Below, piece after piece: positions 469-10,674 of a stretch of 64,000 nt of DNA (the first letter of the stretch is position 1; every line of letters begins with the position of its first letter). The DNA comes from Pedobacter sp. ISL-64 (GTDB lineage Bacteria; Bacteroidota; Bacteroidia; Sphingobacteriales; Sphingobacteriaceae). Where the stretch lies: contig NZ_JAGGPU010000015.1 of the NCBI RefSeq assembly GCF_018613605.1, forward strand, positions 1 to 64,000, read 5' to 3'. The notes under the pieces are model-generated. The model did not search any database and had not been told where the DNA came from. It saw only the letters and a list, made by a program, of their open reading frames with translations. The position numbers and the translations under genes were made by a program.

Positions 469-506
469 AATAAATTACGACTATTCCTATATACTTTATA
501 TATTTG
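469..506 (+). promoter_or_regulatory. Promoter of the sulfite reductase transcript
   Basis: The -7 core TATATTTG (499-506) fits the Bacteroidota consensus TAnnTTTG. A TTAC at 475-478, about 20 bases upstream, may stand in for the -33 element. The whole 38-base block matches 9442-9479, upstream of the second SUMT gene, at about 34 positions without a gap. That suggests a shared promoter and possibly a shared operator for sulfur genes. The expected transcription start is near 510-513. Confidence 0.7.
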
Positions 507-510
507 GCGT

Positions 511-582
511 ATGAATTTCAATTTTATACCTAGCAAATTAATCGCTATGCAAATAATGTGTTGTTGTAAAACGCAAAAATAG
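511..582 (+). CDS. Candidate cysteine-rich leader peptide
   Basis: This is a 23-codon ORF from ATG 511 to TAG 580-582, lying between the promoter and the sulfite reductase gene. Its end reads Met-Cys-Cys-Cys-Lys-Thr-Gln-Lys, with three TGT codons in a row at 559-567. In-frame ATGs at 547 and 556 are alternative starts. A start at 511 would be nearly leaderless, because the -7 box ends at 506. A run of codons for the end product of the pathway is the hallmark of ribosome-mediated attenuation; polycysteine leader ORFs that act on sulfur genes are known in mycobacteria. That this peptide is translated and regulatory here is inference. Confidence 0.6.
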   Translation: MNFNFIPSKLIAMQIMCCCKTQK

Positions 583-646
583 GAGCCTACAGATAATTTT
601 AAGTATAAAATATGGAATGCTTCTCGGTAATAGGGAAGCATTTTTT
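515..646 (+). promoter_or_regulatory. Possible attenuator: antiterminator and terminator in the leader
   Basis: A hairpin (AATGCTTC 616-623 with GAAGCATT 635-642) runs into six T residues at 641-646, about 20 bases before the sulfite reductase start; it looks like an intrinsic terminator. A competing long-range stem pairs 521-529 (ATTTTATAC) with 603-611 (GTATAAAAT). It extends with 515-520 against 613-618 across one bulged base and a G-U pair. The two structures share bases 616-618, so they cannot both be complete. The leader ORF with three Cys codons lies in the loop. The pairing was done by eye. Confidence 0.55.
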
Positions 647-666
647 GAATAAAGCTAACAACACAT

Positions 667-2757
667 ATGCAAAGTTTCAGAACAGAACTCGAAAATCCGA
701 TTGTCGAGCAGGACATTATCGATTTAGAGAATAAGATTAAAGCTTTTAGAGATGGAACCATCCACGACGAAAAGTTTAGAAGCCTCCGTTTAGCACGCGG
801 TGTTTACGGTCAAAGACAACCTGGCGTACAAATGGTGCGTATTAAATTGCCTTTTGGTAAGGTAACTTTTAAGCAGTTGTTACGTATTGCAGATATTGCT
901 GATGAGTATGGAAGTGGAAATTTACACTTAACCACCCGTCAGGATATTCAGATTCACTATGTGAGTTTAGACCGTACTCCAGAGCTTTGGGCTAAATTAG
1001 AGCAGGATGATATTACGCTTCGCGAGGCTTGCGGAAATACGGTTCGTAACGTAACGGCATCTCCAAATTCTGGAATCGATGCTGAAGAACCTTTTGATGT
1101 TTCGCCTTATGCGCAAGCGGTATTTGCGTACTTTTTGCGTAACCCGATCTGTCAGGAAATGGGTAGAAAGATTAAAATTTCATTTTCTTCGAGCGATAGA
1201 GATACTGCCTTTAGCTACATTCACGATTTAGGTTTTATTCCTAAAATTAACGAAAATGGCGAACGCGGATTTAAAGTTTTGTTTGCAGGTGGTTTAGGTG
1301 CACAGCCATTTTTGGCCAATGCAGTACACGAGTTTTTGCCTGAAGATCAATTGATTCCGTTTACAGAATCTGTTCTTCGTGTGTTCGACCGTTATGGCGA
1401 ACGTACCAACCGTAACAAAGCACGTTTAAAATACCTGGTTCAAAAATTAGGTTTAGAAGAGGTTTTACGTTTGGTTGCCGAAGAGCGTATTGCCAATAAA
1501 GTAAAAACCTTTAAAATAGATATTAATACTGTACCTCAGCCAACTTTGCCTTTAGAGCAAGAATATCCTGCGGTAGAAATATTAAACGAAGCCCATTACA
1601 AACACTGGTTAGCCACTAACGTAATTGAGCAGAAACAAGCCGGATTTTATGGCGTTTATGTAAAAGTTCAGGTAGGAGATATCAAAACAGATAAAGCAAG
1701 AGCTTTTGTTGATGCCATCAGGTTATATGTTGCTGATGAAATCAGGATTACCCAAAACCAGGGATTGTTGTTAAAGTTTGTACGTAAAGAAGCATTACCT
1801 TCACTATATGCGGCTTTAAATAAAATTGGCTTTACTACGGCAGGTTTTGATAGTTTAGCTGATATTACCACTTGTCCTGGTACCGATACCTGTAATTTGG
1901 GTATTTCGAACTCAATGACCTTGGCCGAAGTTTTGGAAGAGGTAATTTATACCGATTTCCCTGAGTTTATCTACGAGAAAAACATCAAGATCAAAATCAG
2001 CGGATGTATGAACTCTTGCGGTCAACATGGTTTGGCTGAGATTGGTTTCCACGGAAGTTCGGTAAAAGCTGAGGGAAAAGTTGTTCCGGCAGTTCAAGTG
2101 ATGTTGGGTGGTGGAACTGTAGGAAATGGTGTTGGTAGAGTAGCGGAGCGTGTAATTAAAGTGCCTTCTAAAAGGGCTACAAGTGTTTTACACTTCATTT
2201 TAAATGATTTTAAAGCCAATAACCTGGAGGATGAGAACTTTCACCAATATTATGATAGAAAAGGTAAAGATCATTTTTATCAGTTGTTAAAGCCATTGGC
2301 CGATTTGACCAATCTTAAAACAGAAGAATTTGTAGATTGGGGACATGTAGAAGAATTTGTAACTGCAATTGGTGTAGGCGAGTGTGCCGGCGTAGTGATC
2401 GATTTAGTTGCTACTTTATTGTTAGAAGCTGATGAAAAATTTGATTGGGCAAAGCAAAACTTAGCTAAAGGTGCTTATGCCGATGCCATTTATCATACTT
2501 ACAGCACTTTTGTAAGCGCTGCAAAATCTTTATTGTTAGATAAAGGTGTAAACAGCAGCACACAGGTAGGTGTGATCCGTGAATTTGATAACCATTACGT
2601 AGAAACTGGAGAGTTTAATTTATCGACCAATTTCTCTGACCTGGTTTTACAGATCAACAAAAACGAACCTACCGCTGAGTTTGCACAGAAATATTTTGAA
2701 GAAGCAAAACAATTTTTAAATCAGATTAAGGAAAAAAGGGCAGCACTGGTAAAATGA
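667..2757 (+). CDS. Assimilatory sulfite (nitrite/sulfite) reductase, hemoprotein subunit, with HEPN-like C-terminal domain
   Basis: The enzyme should catalyse six-electron reduction of sulfite to sulfide in the cytoplasm, using siroheme and a 4Fe-4S cluster. The protein has 696 residues. The two ferredoxin-like half-domains lie at about 50-110 and 335-400. The cluster and siroheme ligands are visible as C403-x5-C409 and C447-x3-C451. Residues from about 555 onward form an all-helical extension that resembles a HEPN domain and is not part of classical CysI. Neighbours supply siroheme (SUMT, Met8-like) and upstream steps (CysH, CysD, CysN), so sulfite is a more likely substrate than nitrite. 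No flavoprotein subunit is nearby; ferredoxin may donate electrons. A Cys-codon leader precedes it. Confidence 0.9.
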   Translation: MQSFRTELENPIVEQDIIDLENKIKAFRDGTIHDEKFRSLRLARGVYGQRQPGVQMVRIKLPFGKVTFKQLLRIADIADEYGSGNLHLTTRQDIQIHYVSLDRTPELWAKLEQDDITLREACGNTVRNVTASPNSGIDAEEPFDVSPYAQAVFAYFLRNPICQEMGRKIKISFSSSDRDTAFSYIHDLGFIPKINENGERGFKVLFAGGLGAQPFLANAVHEFLPEDQLIPFTESVLRVFDRYGERTNRNKARLKYLVQKLGLEEVLRLVAEERIANKVKTFKIDINTVPQPTLPLEQEYPAVEILNEAHYKHWLATNVIEQKQAGFYGVYVKVQVGDIKTDKARAFVDAIRLYVADEIRITQNQGLLLKFVRKEALPSLYAALNKIGFTTAGFDSLADITTCPGTDTCNLGISNSMTLAEVLEEVIYTDFPEFIYEKNIKIKISGCMNSCGQHGLAEIGFHGSSVKAEGKVVPAVQVMLGGGTVGNGVGRVAERVIKVPSKRATSVLHFILNDFKANNLEDENFHQYYDRKGKDHFYQLLKPLADLTNLKTEEFVDWGHVEEFVTAIGVGECAGVVIDLVATLLLEADEKFDWAKQNLAKGAYADAIYHTYSTFVSAAKSLLLDKGVNSSTQVGVIREFDNHYVETGEFNLSTNFSDLVLQINKNEPTAEFAQKYFEEAKQFLNQIKEKRAALVK

Positions 2758-2849: not shown

Positions 2850-3620
2850 ATGTTAAATCAAAATAAAGAATCAAAAATAACCCTTTTAGGTGCAGGTCCT
2901 GGAGATCCTGATTTGTTGACACTAAAAGGTGTAAAAGCGTTGCAAACTGCTGATGTGGTTTTGTACGATGCCTTAACCAATGAGGCTTTATTGGAGCATG
3001 CTCCGGCAGAAGCCATTAAAGTTTATGTAGGAAAACGTTCAGGTGAGCATTCTTATCCTCAGGATACCATCAATAAATTAATGATCGATTATGCCTTAAA
3101 CTACGGTCACGTAGTGCGTTTAAAAGGTGGCGATCCATTTGTTTTTGGCAGAGGTTACGAGGAGTTGGATTATGCAGCATCATATAGCATTCCGGTAAGT
3201 GTAATCCCGGGTATTTCGAGTTCGATCGGTGTACCAGGTTTGCAACAGATTCCGGTTACACACCGCGGCATGAGCGAAAGCTTTTGGGTAATTACCGGAA
3301 CAACCACTTCTGGAGAAGTTTCGGCAGATATTTACCAGGCTGCACATTCGAATGCGACTGTTGTGGTACTTATGGGACTTAAAAAATTACCTAAAATTGT
3401 GGAGATTTTTAAAGCCGCTGGTAAACACAATTTACCAACCGCAGTGGTTCAGAACGGATCGGCAGAAGATGAAAGATTGGTTGTTGGTGTGGTTGAAACC
3501 ATAGAAGGTTTAGTGCAACAAGAAAATATTAAGGCACCTGCTTTATTAATTTTTGGAGAAGTTGTATCATTACATCCATCATTTAAGAAATTAATTAAAC
3601 AATATGCAAGTATTGCCTAA
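2850..3620 (+). CDS. cobA: Uroporphyrinogen-III C-methyltransferase (SUMT)
   Basis: It transfers two methyl groups from SAM to uroporphyrinogen III to make precorrin-2, the first committed step to siroheme. The 256-residue protein is typical for single-domain SUMT. Motifs seen are GAGPGDPDLLTLKG near the N-terminus, LYDAL, VGKRSG, VVRLKGGDPFVFGRG, PGISSSIGVPG, THRG and VVLMG. These are the canonical catalytic and SAM-binding segments. It sits between the siroheme-dependent sulfite reductase and the Met8-like gene, whose start overlaps its end by 17 bases, so translational coupling is likely. Confidence 0.93.
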   Translation: MLNQNKESKITLLGAGPGDPDLLTLKGVKALQTADVVLYDALTNEALLEHAPAEAIKVYVGKRSGEHSYPQDTINKLMIDYALNYGHVVRLKGGDPFVFGRGYEELDYAASYSIPVSVIPGISSSIGVPGLQQIPVTHRGMSESFWVITGTTTSGEVSADIYQAAHSNATVVVLMGLKKLPKIVEIFKAAGKHNLPTAVVQNGSAEDERLVVGVVETIEGLVQQENIKAPALLIFGEVVSLHPSFKKLIKQYASIA

Positions 3621-5115
3621 CCAACCTGATAATGCAGCATCTTTTTCTGAAGAAGAAAAAGGTAACCAGCTCTTTCCAGTTTTTGTAAAGCTGAACAAGC
3701 TGCGTACATTATTAATTGGTGCAGGAAATATTGGGCTCGAGAAATTAACTGCGATCGTAAATAATAGCCATAGTGCTACCATTACGATTGTTGCAGAGCT
3801 AGTATCACCAGAAGTTTATGCGCTTATCGCAAATTATCCACTGATAAAAGTTAAGCAGAAAAGTTTCGATGTGGATGATCTGAATGACATTGACATCGTT
3901 TTCGCGGCAACCAATAACAATATTTTAAATGAAGAGATCAGAAAGGTGACGCATGAGCGTGGCCTCTTGATCAACGTGGCAGATAAGCCTGAACTTTGCG
4001 ATTTCTATCTGGGATCAATTGTTCAAAAAGGCGATTTAAAGATTGCCATTTCTACAAACGGCAAATCGCCAACTATTGCCAAACGTTTAAAACAGATTTT
4101 AAACGAAGGTTTGCCTGCTGAGCTTGATGAAACGCTACAGAACATGAGTGCTTTGCGTCAAACTTTAAATGGCGATTTTTCGGCAAAGGTTAAAAAACTG
4201 AATAAGGTTACCCAAAGTTTAATTAACCCTAAAAAAAGTTTTGCCGAACAAAATATTAAATGGTTAATCTGGGCGGCCTCAGTTTTACTAATTGGTGCTA
4301 TCGGGTTTTCTTTGTGGAATACCGAGCCAGAATTCCAGAACTTTTTAATCCATATAGATCCATTGTTCTATTGGTTTTTAGGCGCCGGATTTGTATTTGC
4401 ATTAATTGATGGTGCTATCGGGATGTCGTATGGTGTTACCACAGCTTCTTTTTCGTTGGCCATGGGTTTACCACCAGCATCGGCAAGTATGGCCATTCAC
4501 ATTTCTGAAGTAATGAGCAATGGAATTGCAGGCTGGATGCATTACCGTATGGGTAACGTAAACTGGAAATTATTCAAAATTTTAATCCTTCCGGCCATAA
4601 TCGGAGCAGTTTTAGGTGCCTACATCCTTTCTTCATTAGAACATTATAGTGCTTATGTTAAGCCTATTGTAGCGGTTTACACCTTGTTTTTAGGTGGAAT
4701 TATTCTAATGAAAGCTTTCAATGTGAAGAGAAAAAAAGCCGATCAAAAAATTAAAAAAATTGGCTTGTTGGGCTTTGTTGGTGGTTTTATCGATGCAGCC
4801 TTTGGCGGCGGCTGGGGTTCAATCGTATTATCAAGCTTGATTGCGGGTGGCAGGCATCCATTGTTCTCTTTGGGTACCGTAAAAATCAGCCGCTTTTTTA
4901 TCGCCACCTTAAGTTCGCTTACCTTTTTTACCATGTTAGGTGGCAAACACTGGGAAGCTGTTGTGGGTTTGATTATCGGTAGTGCAATCGCATCACCAAT
5001 AGCCGCAAAAGTATCGAACAAAATTTCTGCAAAAACCATTATGGTTGCCGTAGGAATTATTGTAATGATTGTGAGTTTGCGCAGTGTAATTATGTTTATT
5101 TTAAAATTAATTTAG
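3604..5115 (+). CDS. Fused precorrin-2 dehydrogenase/ferrochelatase and TauE/SafE (TSUP) permease
   Basis: The N-terminal part (about residues 15-200) is Met8/CysG-N-like, with an NAD-binding GAGNIG motif, FAATNN and an SPTIAKRLK segment. It should oxidise precorrin-2 and insert iron to give siroheme. The C-terminal part (about 225-503) is a multi-helix TSUP permease with repeated halves (FALIDGAIGMSYG and GFIDAAFGGGWG), the family that exports or imports sulfite, sulfate or organosulfonates. The 503-residue length and the continuous frame argue for a true fusion. A membrane protein with a cytosolic siroheme-synthase head next to sulfite reductase suggests coupling of cofactor supply to sulfur-anion traffic; this is inference. 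Confidence 0.85.
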   Translation: MQVLPNQPDNAASFSEEEKGNQLFPVFVKLNKLRTLLIGAGNIGLEKLTAIVNNSHSATITIVAELVSPEVYALIANYPLIKVKQKSFDVDDLNDIDIVFAATNNNILNEEIRKVTHERGLLINVADKPELCDFYLGSIVQKGDLKIAISTNGKSPTIAKRLKQILNEGLPAELDETLQNMSALRQTLNGDFSAKVKKLNKVTQSLINPKKSFAEQNIKWLIWAASVLLIGAIGFSLWNTEPEFQNFLIHIDPLFYWFLGAGFVFALIDGAIGMSYGVTTASFSLAMGLPPASASMAIHISEVMSNGIAGWMHYRMGNVNWKLFKILILPAIIGAVLGAYILSSLEHYSAYVKPIVAVYTLFLGGIILMKAFNVKRKKADQKIKKIGLLGFVGGFIDAAFGGGWGSIVLSSLIAGGRHPLFSLGTVKISRFFIATLSSLTFFTMLGGKHWEAVVGLIIGSAIASPIAAKVSNKISAKTIMVAVGIIVMIVSLRSVIMFILKLI

Positions 5116-5117
5116 TA

Positions 5118-5819
5118 ATGGAGAACCTAGAGGAGATAAAAGCAGCACTGGCAGGTTTAAGTACAATTGATAAACTGAAATTCTTAGCAGATAAATATGC
5201 CGACCGTATTATATTTTCGACAAGTTTTGGTTGGGAAGATCAGGCGATTACGCATTTAATTTTTTCAAATAATATTCCAATCAAGGTTTTTACTTTAGAA
5301 ACCGGACGTTTGTTCCCAGAAACCTATTACGTTTGGAACCGAACCCTGGAAATTTATAACAAACCCATTCATGCCTATTATCCGCAGAACGAATTGCTGC
5401 AGGATATGGTAAATACAAAAGGCCCGAGCAGCTTCTACGAGTCGGTAGAGAATAGGAAAGAGTGCTGTTACATTCGTAAAATCGAACCTTTAAAAAGAGC
5501 ATTAAAAGGTAATGAGATATGGGTAACAGGAATCAGGGCCGATCAAAGTGCTAACCGTGAAGATATGCATGATTTAGAATGGGACGAAGGTAACCAATTG
5601 ATTAAATTCCATCCCATATTCGATTGGACTTTAGCGGATGTGAAAACCTACATTAAAGAAAACAACATTGTTTACAATACCTTGCACGATAAGGGTTTCC
5701 CGAGTATAGGATGCGCCCCATGTACCAGAGCAGTACAGCCGGGCGAAGATTTTAGGGCCGGAAGATGGTGGTGGGAAGACCAGAGTAAAAAAGAATGCGG
5801 TTTACACGCGGCATCTTGA
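5118..5819 (+). CDS. cysH: Phosphoadenylyl/adenylyl-sulfate reductase (APS type)
   Basis: It reduces activated sulfate to sulfite with thioredoxin or a similar thiol. The 233-residue protein shows the PP-loop-like segment FSTSFGWED, the pair C116-C117, C199-x2-C202 and the catalytic ECGLH motif (C227) near the C-terminus. The CC...CxxC set binds a 4Fe-4S cluster and marks the APS-using branch. This agrees with the absence of an APS kinase gene here. The start is two bases after the preceding stop, so it is part of the same operon. Confidence 0.93.
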   Translation: MENLEEIKAALAGLSTIDKLKFLADKYADRIIFSTSFGWEDQAITHLIFSNNIPIKVFTLETGRLFPETYYVWNRTLEIYNKPIHAYYPQNELLQDMVNTKGPSSFYESVENRKECCYIRKIEPLKRALKGNEIWVTGIRADQSANREDMHDLEWDEGNQLIKFHPIFDWTLADVKTYIKENNIVYNTLHDKGFPSIGCAPCTRAVQPGEDFRAGRWWWEDQSKKECGLHAAS

Positions 5820-5955: not shown

Positions 5956-6861
5956 ATGAGTACATATAATTTTGATTATTTAGATGAACTAGAGGCCGAG
6001 GCGATTCACATTTTACGTGAAGTAGCGGGTCAGTTTGAAAAACCAGCCTTATTATTTTCGGGTGGAAAAGATTCAATTACTTTAGTTCGTTTGGCAGAAA
6101 AAGCTTTCCGTCCGGGGAAATTTCCTTTTCCTTTAGTACATATTGATACAGGCCATAATTTTGAAGAAACCATCACTTACCGCGATCAGATGGTGGAGCG
6201 GATTGGCGAAAAATTAATCATTGGTTCTGTTCAAGAATCTATTGATCAAGGTAAAGCTGTAGAGCAAACTGGTAAAAATGCCAGTAGAAATGCTTTGCAA
6301 ACCGTAACCCTGCTCGATACCATTGCAAAACACCAGTTTGATGCTTGCATCGGTGGTGCGCGTAGAGATGAAGAAAAAGCAAGGGCTAAAGAACGTATTT
6401 TCTCTGTTCGTGATGAATTTGGCCAATGGGATCCAAAACGCCAACGTCCTGAACTTTGGAATATTTACAATGGTAAAATCCACAAAGGAGAAAATATCCG
6501 TGTATTCCCAATCAGTAACTGGACGGAATTAGATGTTTGGAATTATATCCGAAGAGAGAAAATAGATCTGCCAAGTATTTATTTCTCGCACGAACGTGAT
6601 TGTATTACCAGAAACGGACAGCTGATGGCTGCTTCGCCATTTTTAAATATGGATGATGAAGATGTGGTAGAACGCAAACAGGTTCGTTTCCGTACCGTGG
6701 GCGATATGTCTTGTACTGCTGCAGTAGAATCGGATGCCACTTTGATTGATGATATTATTTCTGAAATCAGCGCTTCTAAAATTTCAGAGCGTGGTGCCCG
6801 TATGGATGATAAAGTTTCTGAAGCCGCAATGGAAGACAGAAAAAAGGGGGGATATTTTTAA
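5956..6861 (+). CDS. cysD: Sulfate adenylyltransferase subunit 2
   Basis: This is the catalytic subunit of ATP sulfurylase, which makes APS from sulfate and ATP together with CysN. It has about 301 residues. The PP-loop SGGKDS lies near residue 36, and HIDTGHNFEET, GGARRDEEKARAKER and the C-terminal RKKGGYF follow; all are family hallmarks. I chose ATG 5956 over the in-frame TTG at 5950 because MSTYNFDYLDELEAEAIHIL matches the usual N-terminus. It is separated from cysH by a palindrome and an ATTCAATC-word dyad but is followed by cysN. Confidence 0.93.
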   Translation: MSTYNFDYLDELEAEAIHILREVAGQFEKPALLFSGGKDSITLVRLAEKAFRPGKFPFPLVHIDTGHNFEETITYRDQMVERIGEKLIIGSVQESIDQGKAVEQTGKNASRNALQTVTLLDTIAKHQFDACIGGARRDEEKARAKERIFSVRDEFGQWDPKRQRPELWNIYNGKIHKGENIRVFPISNWTELDVWNYIRREKIDLPSIYFSHERDCITRNGQLMAASPFLNMDDEDVVERKQVRFRTVGDMSCTAAVESDATLIDDIISEISASKISERGARMDDKVSEAAMEDRKKGGYF

Positions 6862-6959: not shown

Positions 6960-8210
6960 ATGAACATATTAAAATTTTTCACAGCAGGCAGTGTAGATGA
7001 TGGTAAAAGTACCTTAATCGGCCGTTTGTTATACGATACAGATTCTATTTTGGCCGATCAATTAGAAGCTTTACAGAGCTCTAACCGCAAAAATGATGAC
7101 GGAACAATAGATTTAGCCATTTTAACCGATGGTTTAAGAGCAGAGCGCGAGCAAGGTATTACCATTGATGTAGCTTATAAATACTTTCAGACCGAAAAAC
7201 GCAAATTTATTATTGCCGATACACCCGGCCACATTCAATATACAAGAAATATGGTTACAGGCGCTTCTACAGCCAACCTCGCCATTATCTTAATCGATGC
7301 CCGTAACGGCGTGGTAGAACAGACCATCCGTCACTCGTATATCGTTTCCTTATTGGGTATTAAACATGTAGTAGTTTGTATCAACAAAATGGATATGGTC
7401 GACTATAGCGAAACCGTTTATAGTGCCATCATAGAGAAATACAAAGTTTTGGCGCAGCAATTAAAACTTGCTGATGTAACCTATATTCCGGTTAGTGCCT
7501 TAAAAGGCGATAATATTGTGCAAAATTCAGGTAACATGGATTGGTACGAAGGAGAGAGCTTGTTACATTTCTTAGAGAAGGTTGATACCGACAATTTAGA
7601 TAAATCGCAATTGGCCCGTATGCCGGTACAGTGGGTGATACGTCCACAAACTGAAGAATTACACGACTATCGTGGTTATGCTGGTAGGGTACTAAGTGGT
7701 ACTTTTAATTTAAATGATAAAGTTACTGTATTACCTAGTGGTGCGAGTTCTACTGTCGAGAAGATCGAATTTTTTGATCAAACACCCGATGCAGCTCACG
7801 CTGGCCAATCAGTTATTATTCACTTGAAAGATGATGTAGATATTAGCCGTGGCGATACCATTGTAAATGCTTCGGCATTGCCGCAAGAATCGAAGCTGAT
7901 TGAAGCAGACCTTTGCTGGATGGATGGCCGTGCGTTGGATACTTCTATTATGTACAATATTCAGCACAACAGTAAAATTACCCGCTGTAAAATCAGTGAA
8001 ATTTTGCATAAGGTTGATATTAATACACTGGAAAAACATGCTGCTGACGAATTTAAATTAAATGATATTGGCCGTGTGATTATTAAAACTGCTGATGCTT
8101 TGGCATTCGATTTATACGATGATAACCGGGCAAATGGTTCAGCCATTTTGGTCGATACACGTACGAATTTAACCGTTGGTGCTTTAATGTTCAGGGCAGC
8201 AGTAGAATAA
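6960..8210 (+). CDS. cysN: Sulfate adenylyltransferase subunit 1 (GTPase)
   Basis: This regulatory GTPase subunit couples GTP hydrolysis to APS synthesis by CysD. The 416 residues have EF-Tu-like order: G1 GSVDDGKST near residue 11, G3 DTPGH, G4 NKMD, then beta-barrel domains. There is no C-terminal APS kinase (CysC) domain, so the product is APS, which fits the APS-type CysH upstream. It is the last clearly co-directional gene of the sulfate activation block; hairpins with a T-tract follow at 8425-8496. Confidence 0.93.
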   Translation: MNILKFFTAGSVDDGKSTLIGRLLYDTDSILADQLEALQSSNRKNDDGTIDLAILTDGLRAEREQGITIDVAYKYFQTEKRKFIIADTPGHIQYTRNMVTGASTANLAIILIDARNGVVEQTIRHSYIVSLLGIKHVVVCINKMDMVDYSETVYSAIIEKYKVLAQQLKLADVTYIPVSALKGDNIVQNSGNMDWYEGESLLHFLEKVDTDNLDKSQLARMPVQWVIRPQTEELHDYRGYAGRVLSGTFNLNDKVTVLPSGASSTVEKIEFFDQTPDAAHAGQSVIIHLKDDVDISRGDTIVNASALPQESKLIEADLCWMDGRALDTSIMYNIQHNSKITRCKISEILHKVDINTLEKHAADEFKLNDIGRVIIKTADALAFDLYDDNRANGSAILVDTRTNLTVGALMFRAAVE

Positions 8211-9411: not shown

Positions 9412-9441
9412 AGTATTAAGCATAAATAAAAAATATTTTAA

Positions 9442-9479
9442 AATAAATTACTACAATTCCCATAGACTTTATATATTTG
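9442..9479 (+). promoter_or_regulatory. Promoter of the second SUMT gene, same element as 469-506
   Basis: The -7 core TATATTTG is at 9472-9479, with TTAC about 20 bases upstream. The block matches 469-506 at about 34 of 38 positions without a gap. The match stops at the -7 box. The leader here is only about 35 bases and has no ATG, so the Cys-codon leader is absent. Confidence 0.7.
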
Positions 9480-9518: not shown

Positions 9519-10313
9519 ATGATTTTGAATAAAGTAGAAAAAGCGAACATTGAACCACGAATTACTTTGATAGGTGCAGGTCCTGGCGATCCGGATTTAT
9601 TTAGTTTAAAAGGTGTTAAAGCATTAAAAACAGCTGATGTTGTTTTGTATGATGCAAATGTGAACGAGGCTTTATTATGTCATGCGCCAGATGGTATTCC
9701 AAAAGTTTACGTGGGTAAACGTAGCGACGATGAGTCGTTTTCGCAAGATGCCGTAAACAAGCTAATTGTAGATTATGCTTTAAACTACGGGCACGTGGTG
9801 CGTTTAAAAAGCGGTGATCCGTTTTTCTTTGCAAAAGGGTACGAAGAAATAGATGCTGCAGAATCGTACAGTATCCCTACTGAAATTATTCCGGGTATTT
9901 CGAGTGCAACTGGTGCACCAAGTTTGCAAAAAATCCCAATGATTTATAAAGATTTGAGCGAAAGTTTTTGGGCAGTAACCGGAACAAACTCAAAGGGTGA
10001 AATTTCTGAAGACTTATACATCGCGGCAAAAACGAAAGCAACTATTGTTGTTTTAAACGGAATTGAAAAAGTAAAAGAAATTGCTGCCATATTTCAGGCA
10101 GAAAATAAAAACCTTTTACCAGTAGCGGTGATCCAAAATGGCTCGACACCAGAAGAAAAAATTGCTATTGGTATAGTAGATACCATCGCCGAGATTGTTG
10201 AAGATAAAAGAATAACCGCGCCAGCCTTATTGGTTTTTGGAGATGTGGTTTCATTACACCCACAATTTCAACCCATCCGCGATTTCTACGAAATCATTGC
10301 TGAAGAATATTAA
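9519..10313 (+). CDS. SUMT paralogue with altered active-site motifs
   Basis: This 264-residue protein is clearly homologous to the cobA product at 2850-3620 (GAGPGDPDLFSLKG, VGKRS, NYGHVVRLK, PGISSATGAPS, ALLVFGDVVSLHP). Several hallmark segments differ: GGDPFVFGRG is SGDPFFFAKG, THRG is IYKD, and the LMG Met is Asn (LNG). By manual alignment that Met corresponds to Met382 of CysG; the positions matching D248 and K270 are kept. It could be a slow SUMT, a different tetrapyrrole methylase or a regulatory copy. The shared promoter with sulfite reductase places it in the sulfur regulon. Confidence 0.8.
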   Translation: MILNKVEKANIEPRITLIGAGPGDPDLFSLKGVKALKTADVVLYDANVNEALLCHAPDGIPKVYVGKRSDDESFSQDAVNKLIVDYALNYGHVVRLKSGDPFFFAKGYEEIDAAESYSIPTEIIPGISSATGAPSLQKIPMIYKDLSESFWAVTGTNSKGEISEDLYIAAKTKATIVVLNGIEKVKEIAAIFQAENKNLLPVAVIQNGSTPEEKIAIGIVDTIAEIVEDKRITAPALLVFGDVVSLHPQFQPIRDFYEIIAEEY

Positions 10314-10382: not shown

Positions 10383-10674
10383 TGTTTAGCAGAAACAGTC
10401 TTTGTTTTTAAGCCTGATTGCAGCGGTAGCTCCCGACTTCACGTCGGGACTATAGCGGAAAGCAGGTCTGTAGCCCGCCACAAAGAATTGGCCGTTTTCA
10501 CTTTCTAATAAAAAAAGCTAAGTAATTTATATGGATTAGATCTCTCCATTCCGCGTATCTCCAGTCGAGATGACGATTTTCGCTTTAAAATAATCAACTA
10601 AAAATATAATTTTCATTATTTGCAAAACTCAAAACAATTAGTAACTTACTTAGGTTATCTACACCAAATATTTG

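Follow-up and report, generated by a model that had tools for sequence, protein, structure and literature searches.

Introduction

Canestrari et al. reportedly described, in 2020, the polycysteine leaderless short open reading frames (ORFs) of mycobacteria. In Rhodobacterales, the uORFC-8-2 motif upstream of cysS was predicted to act by ribosome-mediated attenuation using tandem Cys codons (PMC8632094; published work is cited here and below from excerpts of the papers). Here, a 64,000-nt stretch of DNA of the Bacteroidota species Pedobacter sp. ISL-64 (GCF_018613605.1, contig NZ_JAGGPU010000015.1, positions 1 to 64,000 of the forward strand), which is called the window below, was analyzed computationally around the 5′ region of its nitrite/sulfite reductase gene. 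In this region, a leader ORF with three consecutive Cys codons is followed by an intrinsic terminator. Judging from its conservation and from folding models, we consider it very probable that this leader controls the sulfate-assimilation operon by ribosome-mediated transcription attenuation in response to charged Cys-tRNA. An earlier reading of the same DNA, made from the letters alone and referred to below as the sequence-only reading, had stated that no such leader was described in Bacteroidota. Our literature searches, which covered open-licence papers, top-ranked matches, and main texts, likewise found no Cys leader in this phylum, while attenuation of other amino-acid operons was inferred in Flavobacterium psychrophilum (PMC9723704).

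Results and Discussion

Leader ORF and Terminator of the Window

A short, presumably translated Cys-codon ORF lies between a conserved promoter and the operon, and an intrinsic terminator lies between this ORF and the first gene (Table 1). The sequence-only reading had named the ORF at 511–582 with TGT-TGT-TGT at 559–567, together with a terminator-like hairpin at 616–646; both are present in the sequence, the latter as a stem-loop AATGCTTCTC-GGTAATA-GGGAAGCATT (616–642) with a T-run at 641–646 and an energy of −12.3 kcal/mol, located just before the reductase gene at 667. The leader frame is also open from an ATG at 436, which is probably unused as a start because it sits 5′ of the conserved promoter. 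A strict scan for an ATG ORF containing CC or CxC, its stop codon, and then an intrinsic terminator gave a single match on both strands of the 64-kb window, which was the 511–582 leader. The same motif was found within 420 nt upstream of the reductase gene at 46 of 80 named loci, versus 2 matches in the rest of 1,118,324 strand-bases. These counts indicate that the combination of leader and terminator is more than a chance occurrence. A riboswitch, such as the SAM riboswitch or a T-box, was rejected because Rfam gave no match in 507–666 at E ≤ 1, and 17 related loci likewise gave none when gathering thresholds were applied.

Table 1. Coordinates of the leader elements, the regulated gene, and its neighbors in the window.
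Feature	Position	Strand	Basis
Conserved promoter CTATTCCTATATACTTTATATATTTG; −7 box TATATTTG at 499–506	481–506	+	Conservation; fit to published consensus
Predicted start of transcription on the leader ATG, at 511 or 512	511	+	Published spacing from the G of TTTG at 506
Leader ORF MNFNFIPSKLIAMQIMCCCKTQK	511–582	+	ATG to TAG, 23 codons; homologous ORFs in relatives
Segment 1, 5′ arm of the long-range stem, TTTTATAC	522–529	+	Partner 603–610
Putative regulatory codons, TGT-TGT-TGT (three consecutive Cys)	559–567	+	Sequence; relatives have their Cys cluster around codon 16
Segment 2, AGGAGC at the leader stop codon, candidate antiterminator 5′ strand	581–586	+	Pairs with 619–624
3′ arm of the long-range stem, GTATAAAA	603–610	+	Partner of segment 1
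Intrinsic terminator, stem 616–625/633–642, U-run 641–646	616–646	+	−12.3 kcal/mol
Segment 3, GCTTCT, common to antiterminator and terminator	619–624	+	Pairing analysis
Nitrite/sulfite reductase (regulated gene)	667–2757	+	Pfam NIR_SIR, NIR_SIR_ferr; no NCBIfam equivalog cut-off reached
Uroporphyrinogen-III C-methyltransferase (siroheme)	2850–3620	+	TIGR01469
Single-ORF fusion of a siroheme synthase N-terminal domain with a TauE/SafE sulfite-exporter-like membrane domain	3604–5115	+	TIGR01470, PF01925
Adenylyl-/phosphoadenylyl-sulfate reductase, cysH	5118–5819	+	NF002537, TIGR02055
Sulfate adenylyltransferase subunit CysD	5956–6861 (ORF listed from 5950)	+	TIGR02039
Sulfate adenylyltransferase subunit CysN	6960–8210	+	TIGR02034

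Conservation of the Leader in Pedobacter and Beyond

The reductase gene was found in 57 of the 60 sampled genomes of the genus, the window's own included. The 80 named loci comprise 49 of Pedobacter, 26 of Mucilaginibacter, 2 of Olivibacter, and 3 others. A leader ORF was called by rule in 61 of them; 60 had at least one Cys, and 55 had two or more. Among the 60 with Cys, L217 and L224 are rule matches that have no terminator. From 218 upstream regions, in which named and unnamed sets overlap, 121 distinct leader ORFs were obtained, and a terminator was called for 115 of these. The Cys codons in the relatives' leaders were TGT (185) and TGC (104). Counted by frame, TGY codons amounted to 280/2367, 159/2252, and 32/2252, which is an unclean control, since an ATG followed by T reads TGT in the +1 frame. 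The sequence-only reading had made its proposal depend on conservation in close relatives, and most of the sampled genus did prove to share the Cys codons, promoter, terminator, and pairings, which also recurred in other families.

The leader peptides are exemplified by MNFNFIPNQLTAKQMMCCCCKTQ in Pedobacter, MNQTIYNGNLMLTHCMCG in another Pedobacter clade, and MTTIFVTTHNNLIFCCMRINTSRL and MNEQLAHTTGTMCICCCYNNSKTRLL in Mucilaginibacter, which have the Cys cluster in common, while the flanking residues vary. Cys residues bind metals, and the ORF is conserved with its Cys cluster near codon 16, so that the product might be a functional small peptide (e.g., metal- or redox-binding) or an arrest peptide that senses something other than Cys-tRNA. 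We regard this as very unlikely, however, because the peptide outside the Cys cluster is unrelated between clades, the cluster itself varies in number and spacing (CC to CCCCC, CxC), and the conserved ORF ends coincide with base-pairing segments. In many leaders, the C-terminal residues are presumably conserved because they are placed in those segments.

At the class level, the gene was present in 38 of 149 genomes in a first sample and in 93 of 395 in a second, family members included. The set outside the family held 75 of 79 matches from 24 families, with four partial matches (G789, G650, G521, and G580) left out; for L299, the upstream sequence amounted to only 310 nt. The strict motif was present in 27 of these 75 loci and in 14 of the 24 families, with Cys runs such as MCCCC, ACCCMCCCC, and MMCCCCCMM. 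By its anatomy, the device thus extends to no fewer than 15 families, namely that of the window and 14 of the 24 others sampled, and is therefore probably old and useful. For the 50 newest outside-family loci, the opposite strand gave 0 strict-motif matches. Furthermore, 11 of the 75 loci, distributed over several families, carry two Cys-run leader ORFs in series, each with its own terminator (L259, L261, L263, L264, L265, L267, L275, L288, L297, L302, and L318).

Co-Evolution of the Leader Pairings

Shuffling of segment 2 sequence by sequence gave a mean z of −0.99 and 25 cases at p ≤ 0.05 among 112 sequences. Since this procedure is too weak for single sequences, a partner-swap test was used, in which the pairing energy of a leader's own segments was compared with that of segments exchanged between species (86 leaders after near-duplicate removal). 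The leader L061, whose ORF is unlike the family, was excluded from the swap test, the family geometry, and the position null described below, and was included in the per-sequence shuffling. For the antiterminator, the family leaders gave −9.92 with their own segments versus −8.37 (sd 0.23) with swapped segments and −9.21 (sd 0.15) with swaps within groups. The long-range stem gave −8.80 versus −6.76 (sd 0.26) and −7.54 (sd 0.24), and for either pairing 0 of 5,000 permutations were as low. A control pairing of the start-proximal leader with the terminator arm (1:3) exhibited no excess in the family (p = 0.91; within groups, 0.17) or at the class level (p = 0.68). When divided by group, the antiterminator test was significant in Mucilaginibacter (p < 0.0002) and marginal in the second Pedobacter clade (p = 0.056), and the long stem gave p = 0.0008 in the window's clade, p < 0.0002 in the second Pedobacter clade, and a weaker p = 0.015 in Mucilaginibacter.

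Both pairings were also better than swapped partners in 38 class-level units. With one unit per family (n = 14), the antiterminator gave −15.30 versus −10.65 (sd 0.83; 0 of 10,000 as low) and the long stem −14.15 versus −9.79 (sd 0.80), each a difference of more than 5 sd. Compensated pairs are exemplified by CGGAAGG:CCTTCCG in L265 versus CGGGAGG:CCTCCCG in L267. The antiterminator is far stronger in these other families, with an energy of −11 kcal/mol or lower in 35 of the 38 units, versus −7.1 for the window.

Column-wise pair counts, which rest on sequence-only alignments, were taken from the 115 terminator-bearing leaders. The alignments comprised 45 of 45 leaders from the window's clade, 17 of 18 from the second Pedobacter clade, and 26 of 32 from Mucilaginibacter; 7 divergent leaders and 20 of other genera were left out. 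In the 45 aligned sequences of the window's clade (window included), the 522–529:603–610 stem was paired in 85.9% of cells with 4 of 8 pairs changed on both sides, and the terminator in 99.8% of cells with 2 of 10 pairs so changed. The covariation score of these two structures exceeded that of shuffles and slid structures, and their paired cells exceeded those of slid controls. Pair counts also backed the antiterminator of Mucilaginibacter and, in part, that of the second Pedobacter clade. On these sequence comparisons, the antiterminator, which shares bases with the terminator, and the long-range leader stem that opposes it (1:2) are both supported as co-evolving pairings across the family and the class; the antiterminator is only suggestive when the clade of the window is taken by itself.

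These pairings also bear on whether the leader acts on transcription or on translation. A Cys-responsive control of the mycobacterial kind, in which a stalled ribosome would open a structure that hides the reductase start without terminating transcription, has its precedent in mycobacterial leaderless polycysteine ORFs described as translation attenuators (PMC13236596, PMC9031893), and the fold of the complete leader does pair 556–567 with a stretch up to the gene start. However, a hairpin with a U-run follows 115 of the 121 distinct leaders, and its 5′ arm co-evolves with segment 2. In addition, Bacteroidota are described as being without Shine–Dalgarno sequences (PMC6847099), and therefore there is no such site to hide. 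Control at the level of translation is hence judged very unlikely. The strict mycobacterial type, with a hidden Shine–Dalgarno sequence and without a terminator, was rejected, as the terminator is present and conserved.

Segment Spacing and Folding with Ribosomes

Of the four segments expected in a transcription attenuator, the antiterminator strand (segment 2) should be free while the ribosome stalls and covered once it finishes. Because the search for segment 2 was confined to the interval from the last Cys codon to the terminator, the shuffled null and not zero is the yardstick. In the 38 class-level units, the median distance from the last clustered Cys codon to the start of segment 2 is 13 nt (5–95%: 8–20) versus a median of 20 nt (1–51) in shuffles, and this spacing does not depend on where the stop codon lies. 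Among the family leaders, segment 2 begins close to the stop codon or on it (median −1), no farther than stop+14 in 110 of 111 leaders versus 74.5% in shuffles, and 95 of the 111 segments begin at least 14 nt after the start of the first clustered Cys codon. It follows that a ribosome on a Cys codon would mostly leave segment 2 free and that an advanced ribosome would cover it. The window RNA up to 627 was folded with assumed ribosome footprints masked. The antiterminator (581–586:619–624) then had a probability of 0.06 with no ribosome and 0.86 with one ribosome stalled on the first Cys codon; this rose to 0.97 when a second ribosome followed the stalled one and was 0.00 when a ribosome occupied the stop codon.

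The sequence-only reading had also proposed a long-range stem (515–529 with 603–618), of which the core 522–529:603–610 was borne out, with a predicted probability of 0.93 in ribosome-free RNA and 0.99 with a ribosome at the stop codon. Its proposed role was to oppose the terminator, which is not supported: the stem crosses the antiterminator candidate, and because the two are mutually exclusive it should promote termination. The further proposal that a ribosome over the 5′ end of the leader lets the terminator form is also reversed, as read-through is the expected outcome in the model. The long stem acts as the chief brake in this model; its removal by a ribosome at the start suffices for the antiterminator, unless the stop region is covered by another ribosome. 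The principle that a Cys-codon leader attenuates the sulfite reductase gene, with read-through when Cys-tRNA is scarce, is supported by the conserved Cys codons and pairings.

The proposed mechanism is as follows. Transcription would begin at or beside the leader ATG at 511. When charged Cys-tRNA is scarce, the leading ribosome would stall on the Cys codons (559–567) and leave 581–586 free to pair with the 5′ arm of the terminator (619–624), so that the polymerase could read into the sulfite reductase gene. A second ribosome loading behind the stalled one may cover segment 1 and aid read-through. When Cys-tRNA is plentiful, the ribosome would reach the stop codon and cover 581–586, or would depart and let segment 1 (522–529) pair with 603–610. 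Either way the antiterminator would be blocked, the terminator (616–642) would form, and transcription would end near 646. The stalled ribosome cannot itself reach as far upstream as segment 1; therefore, either this segment is covered by a following ribosome or the antiterminator prevails by forming faster.

Several results weigh against this interpretation. Twenty of the 80 named loci gave no Cys leader by rule, several Pedobacter retain the promoter without the leader, and parts are lost in single relatives (ATA for ATG in P. terrae, no Cys in L030, and an early stop in L026). No motif was found in families f4 (9 loci), f61 (8), and f8, f10, and f55 (4 each), nor in five further families of one or two loci each, so that the device is widespread but patchy. 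Among the pairings, the antiterminator was marginal in the window's clade by the swap test (p = 0.075), where it was kept in 92.2% of cells with no covariation above shuffles (80 of 500 reached its score), and the window's own duplex was no better than shuffled sequence (p = 0.478). The double-changed cells of the long stem and terminator in this clade (13) were not above slid controls (7–15), and two groups of 6 leaders each, g21 and g4, exhibited no swap excess for 2:3 (p = 0.82 and 0.95) or 1:2 (p = 0.28 and 0.52). In the folding model, whose footprints are an assumption, a Cys stall was not cleanly required: a stall on the second Cys codon alone gave the antiterminator a probability of 0.22, and covering the start alone (510–526) gave 0.97. 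Finally, the full leader formed the terminator at equilibrium in four ribosome states (P 0.94–1.00). The terminator thus wins at equilibrium, and antitermination in the window must therefore be kinetic, that is, take place before the 3′ arm emerges.

A more far-reaching proposal, which we offer as a speculation with the balance tilted against it, is that Bacteroidia possess a class-wide, often leaderless, Cys-specific attenuation of sulfite reductase. Two units answering the same signal would often act in series, multiplicatively, to give a steeper switch, and the start-proximal segment would make read-through depend on a second ribosome, so that the device would read both Cys-tRNA charging and the initiation rate.

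Promoter and Predicted Transcription Start

The promoter CTATTCCTATATACTTTATATATTTG is nearly invariant 5′ of the reductase gene in most Pedobacter sampled, and its −7 box TATATTTG matches the published Bacteroidota −7 consensus TANNTTTG/TAHHTTTG. With at most one mismatch, CTATANACTTTATATATTTG occurs only twice in the window's genome, and CTATATACTTTATATATTTG in 4 of the 296 genomes of a phylum sample. In F. johnsoniae, the −7 element spans −12 to −5, which leaves 4–5 nt to the start (PMC6847099). In 35 of 37 leader ORFs of named Pedobacter, the ATG follows TTTG at a distance of exactly 4 nt, versus 6 of 23 in Mucilaginibacter, where the distance reaches up to 14 nt. With a predicted start at 511 or 512, the Pedobacter leader ORF is therefore probably leaderless, with an RNA that begins at or near the ATG. 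The leaderless state is rare in Bacteroidota: about 3.7% of 5′ untranslated regions (UTRs) in Bacteroides are under 10 nt (PMC7366714), and 5.5% of F. psychrophilum mRNAs are leaderless (PMC9723704).

Upstream of the −7 box, the block 475–498, around CTA-TTCCTATATACTTTATATA, is conserved far beyond the apparent need of a promoter, which suggests a putative regulator-binding site for sulfur genes. A second copy of the promoter at 9431–9479, which is 86% identical to 457–506, precedes a second uroporphyrinogen-III methyltransferase gene (9519–10313). This gene has a short 5′ UTR and no Cys leader, and it thus provides a natural control for promoter-level versus leader-level regulation.

These features raise the question of whether a protein at the conserved promoter is the regulator, the terminator being a constitutive read-through control or belonging to an upstream transcript and the Cys run being incidental. 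Strong conservation of the promoter element extends to species in which no leader was found (P. polaris and P. frigiditerrae), and its second copy precedes a gene without any leader. Against this, the Cys run is found in 46 of the 80 loci versus 2 background matches and recurs in 14 other families with differing promoter sequences; a chance Cys run is therefore excluded, and this explanation appears extremely unlikely. An additional promoter-level regulator may well exist beside the attenuator.

Sulfate-Assimilation Cluster and Other Features

The sulfate-assimilation cluster yields reduced sulfur for cysteine. The gene at 667–2757 is called a sulfite reductase because it lies in this cluster (Table 1), and the named relatives whose gene is closest to it are species of Pedobacter. 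Residues 584–649 of its product match a C-terminal HEPN domain (Pfam PF05168, E 2.4e-5), which is unexpected in a sulfite reductase. Upstream of the seven cysteine-synthase-type (PALP) genes of the same genome, no Cys-run ORF was listed directly adjacent on the same strand (by ORF list, with no terminator test). A 30-base element at 400–430 is dispersed round the genome, is unrelated to the leader, and was the source of 38 of 40 scored matches. A Flavo-1 RNA motif at 10406–10473 scored slightly under its gathering score (40.7 vs. 42 bits).

Significance and Comparison with Known Systems

The leader offers a concrete and testable account of the way in which many Bacteroidota could link their sulfate assimilation to the supply of cysteine with no sensor protein. 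It would extend Cys-codon attenuation to a phylum without Shine–Dalgarno sequences, where it likely works from a 5′-terminal AUG, convergently with mycobacteria. With the tandem units, it can furthermore be examined in a natural setting why an organism would stack two switches that respond to one codon signal.

Like the window's leader, the uORFC-8-2 motif has tandem Cys codons, usually codons 14–15, in a short ORF followed by an intrinsic terminator. Unlike the window's leader, it is alphaproteobacterial, controls Cys-tRNA synthetase, and carries the Cys codons inside the first stem, and the excerpted text mentions no duplication in series, in contrast to the tandem units of some Bacteroidia (PMC8632094). 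The mycobacterial leaders share the leaderless ORF with contiguous Cys codons before cysteine genes, in which ribosome speed reports the cysteine supply. They are described as translation attenuators (PMC13236596, PMC9031893), whereas the intrinsic terminator and co-evolving antiterminator of the present leader point to transcription attenuation, and the likeness is probably convergent. Short ORFs with Cys runs near the stop codon, 5′ of cysteine genes, were also described for the cys/cbs leaders of Actinobacteria; according to the passages cited, those of Mycobacterium are without conserved terminator hairpins (PMC1262725), whereas the Bacteroidia leaders have terminators. Within the same phylum, leader-peptide attenuation was inferred 5′ of amino-acid biosynthesis operons in F. 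psychrophilum, whose conserved 5′ elements include pheA and hisG, with no Cys or sulfite reductase case named in the section on 5′ cis-regulatory RNAs (PMC9723704). Two ORF-based attenuators in series within one leader, as in the tandem Bacteroidia loci, are known from Salmonella mgtCBR, where they answer different signals, ATP and proline (PMC3641672); the tandem Bacteroidia units both contain Cys runs, and the window has one unit. Cys-codon attenuation is thus already known or predicted elsewhere, and the Bacteroidia leaders would add to it a wide reach in their class and a tandem form.
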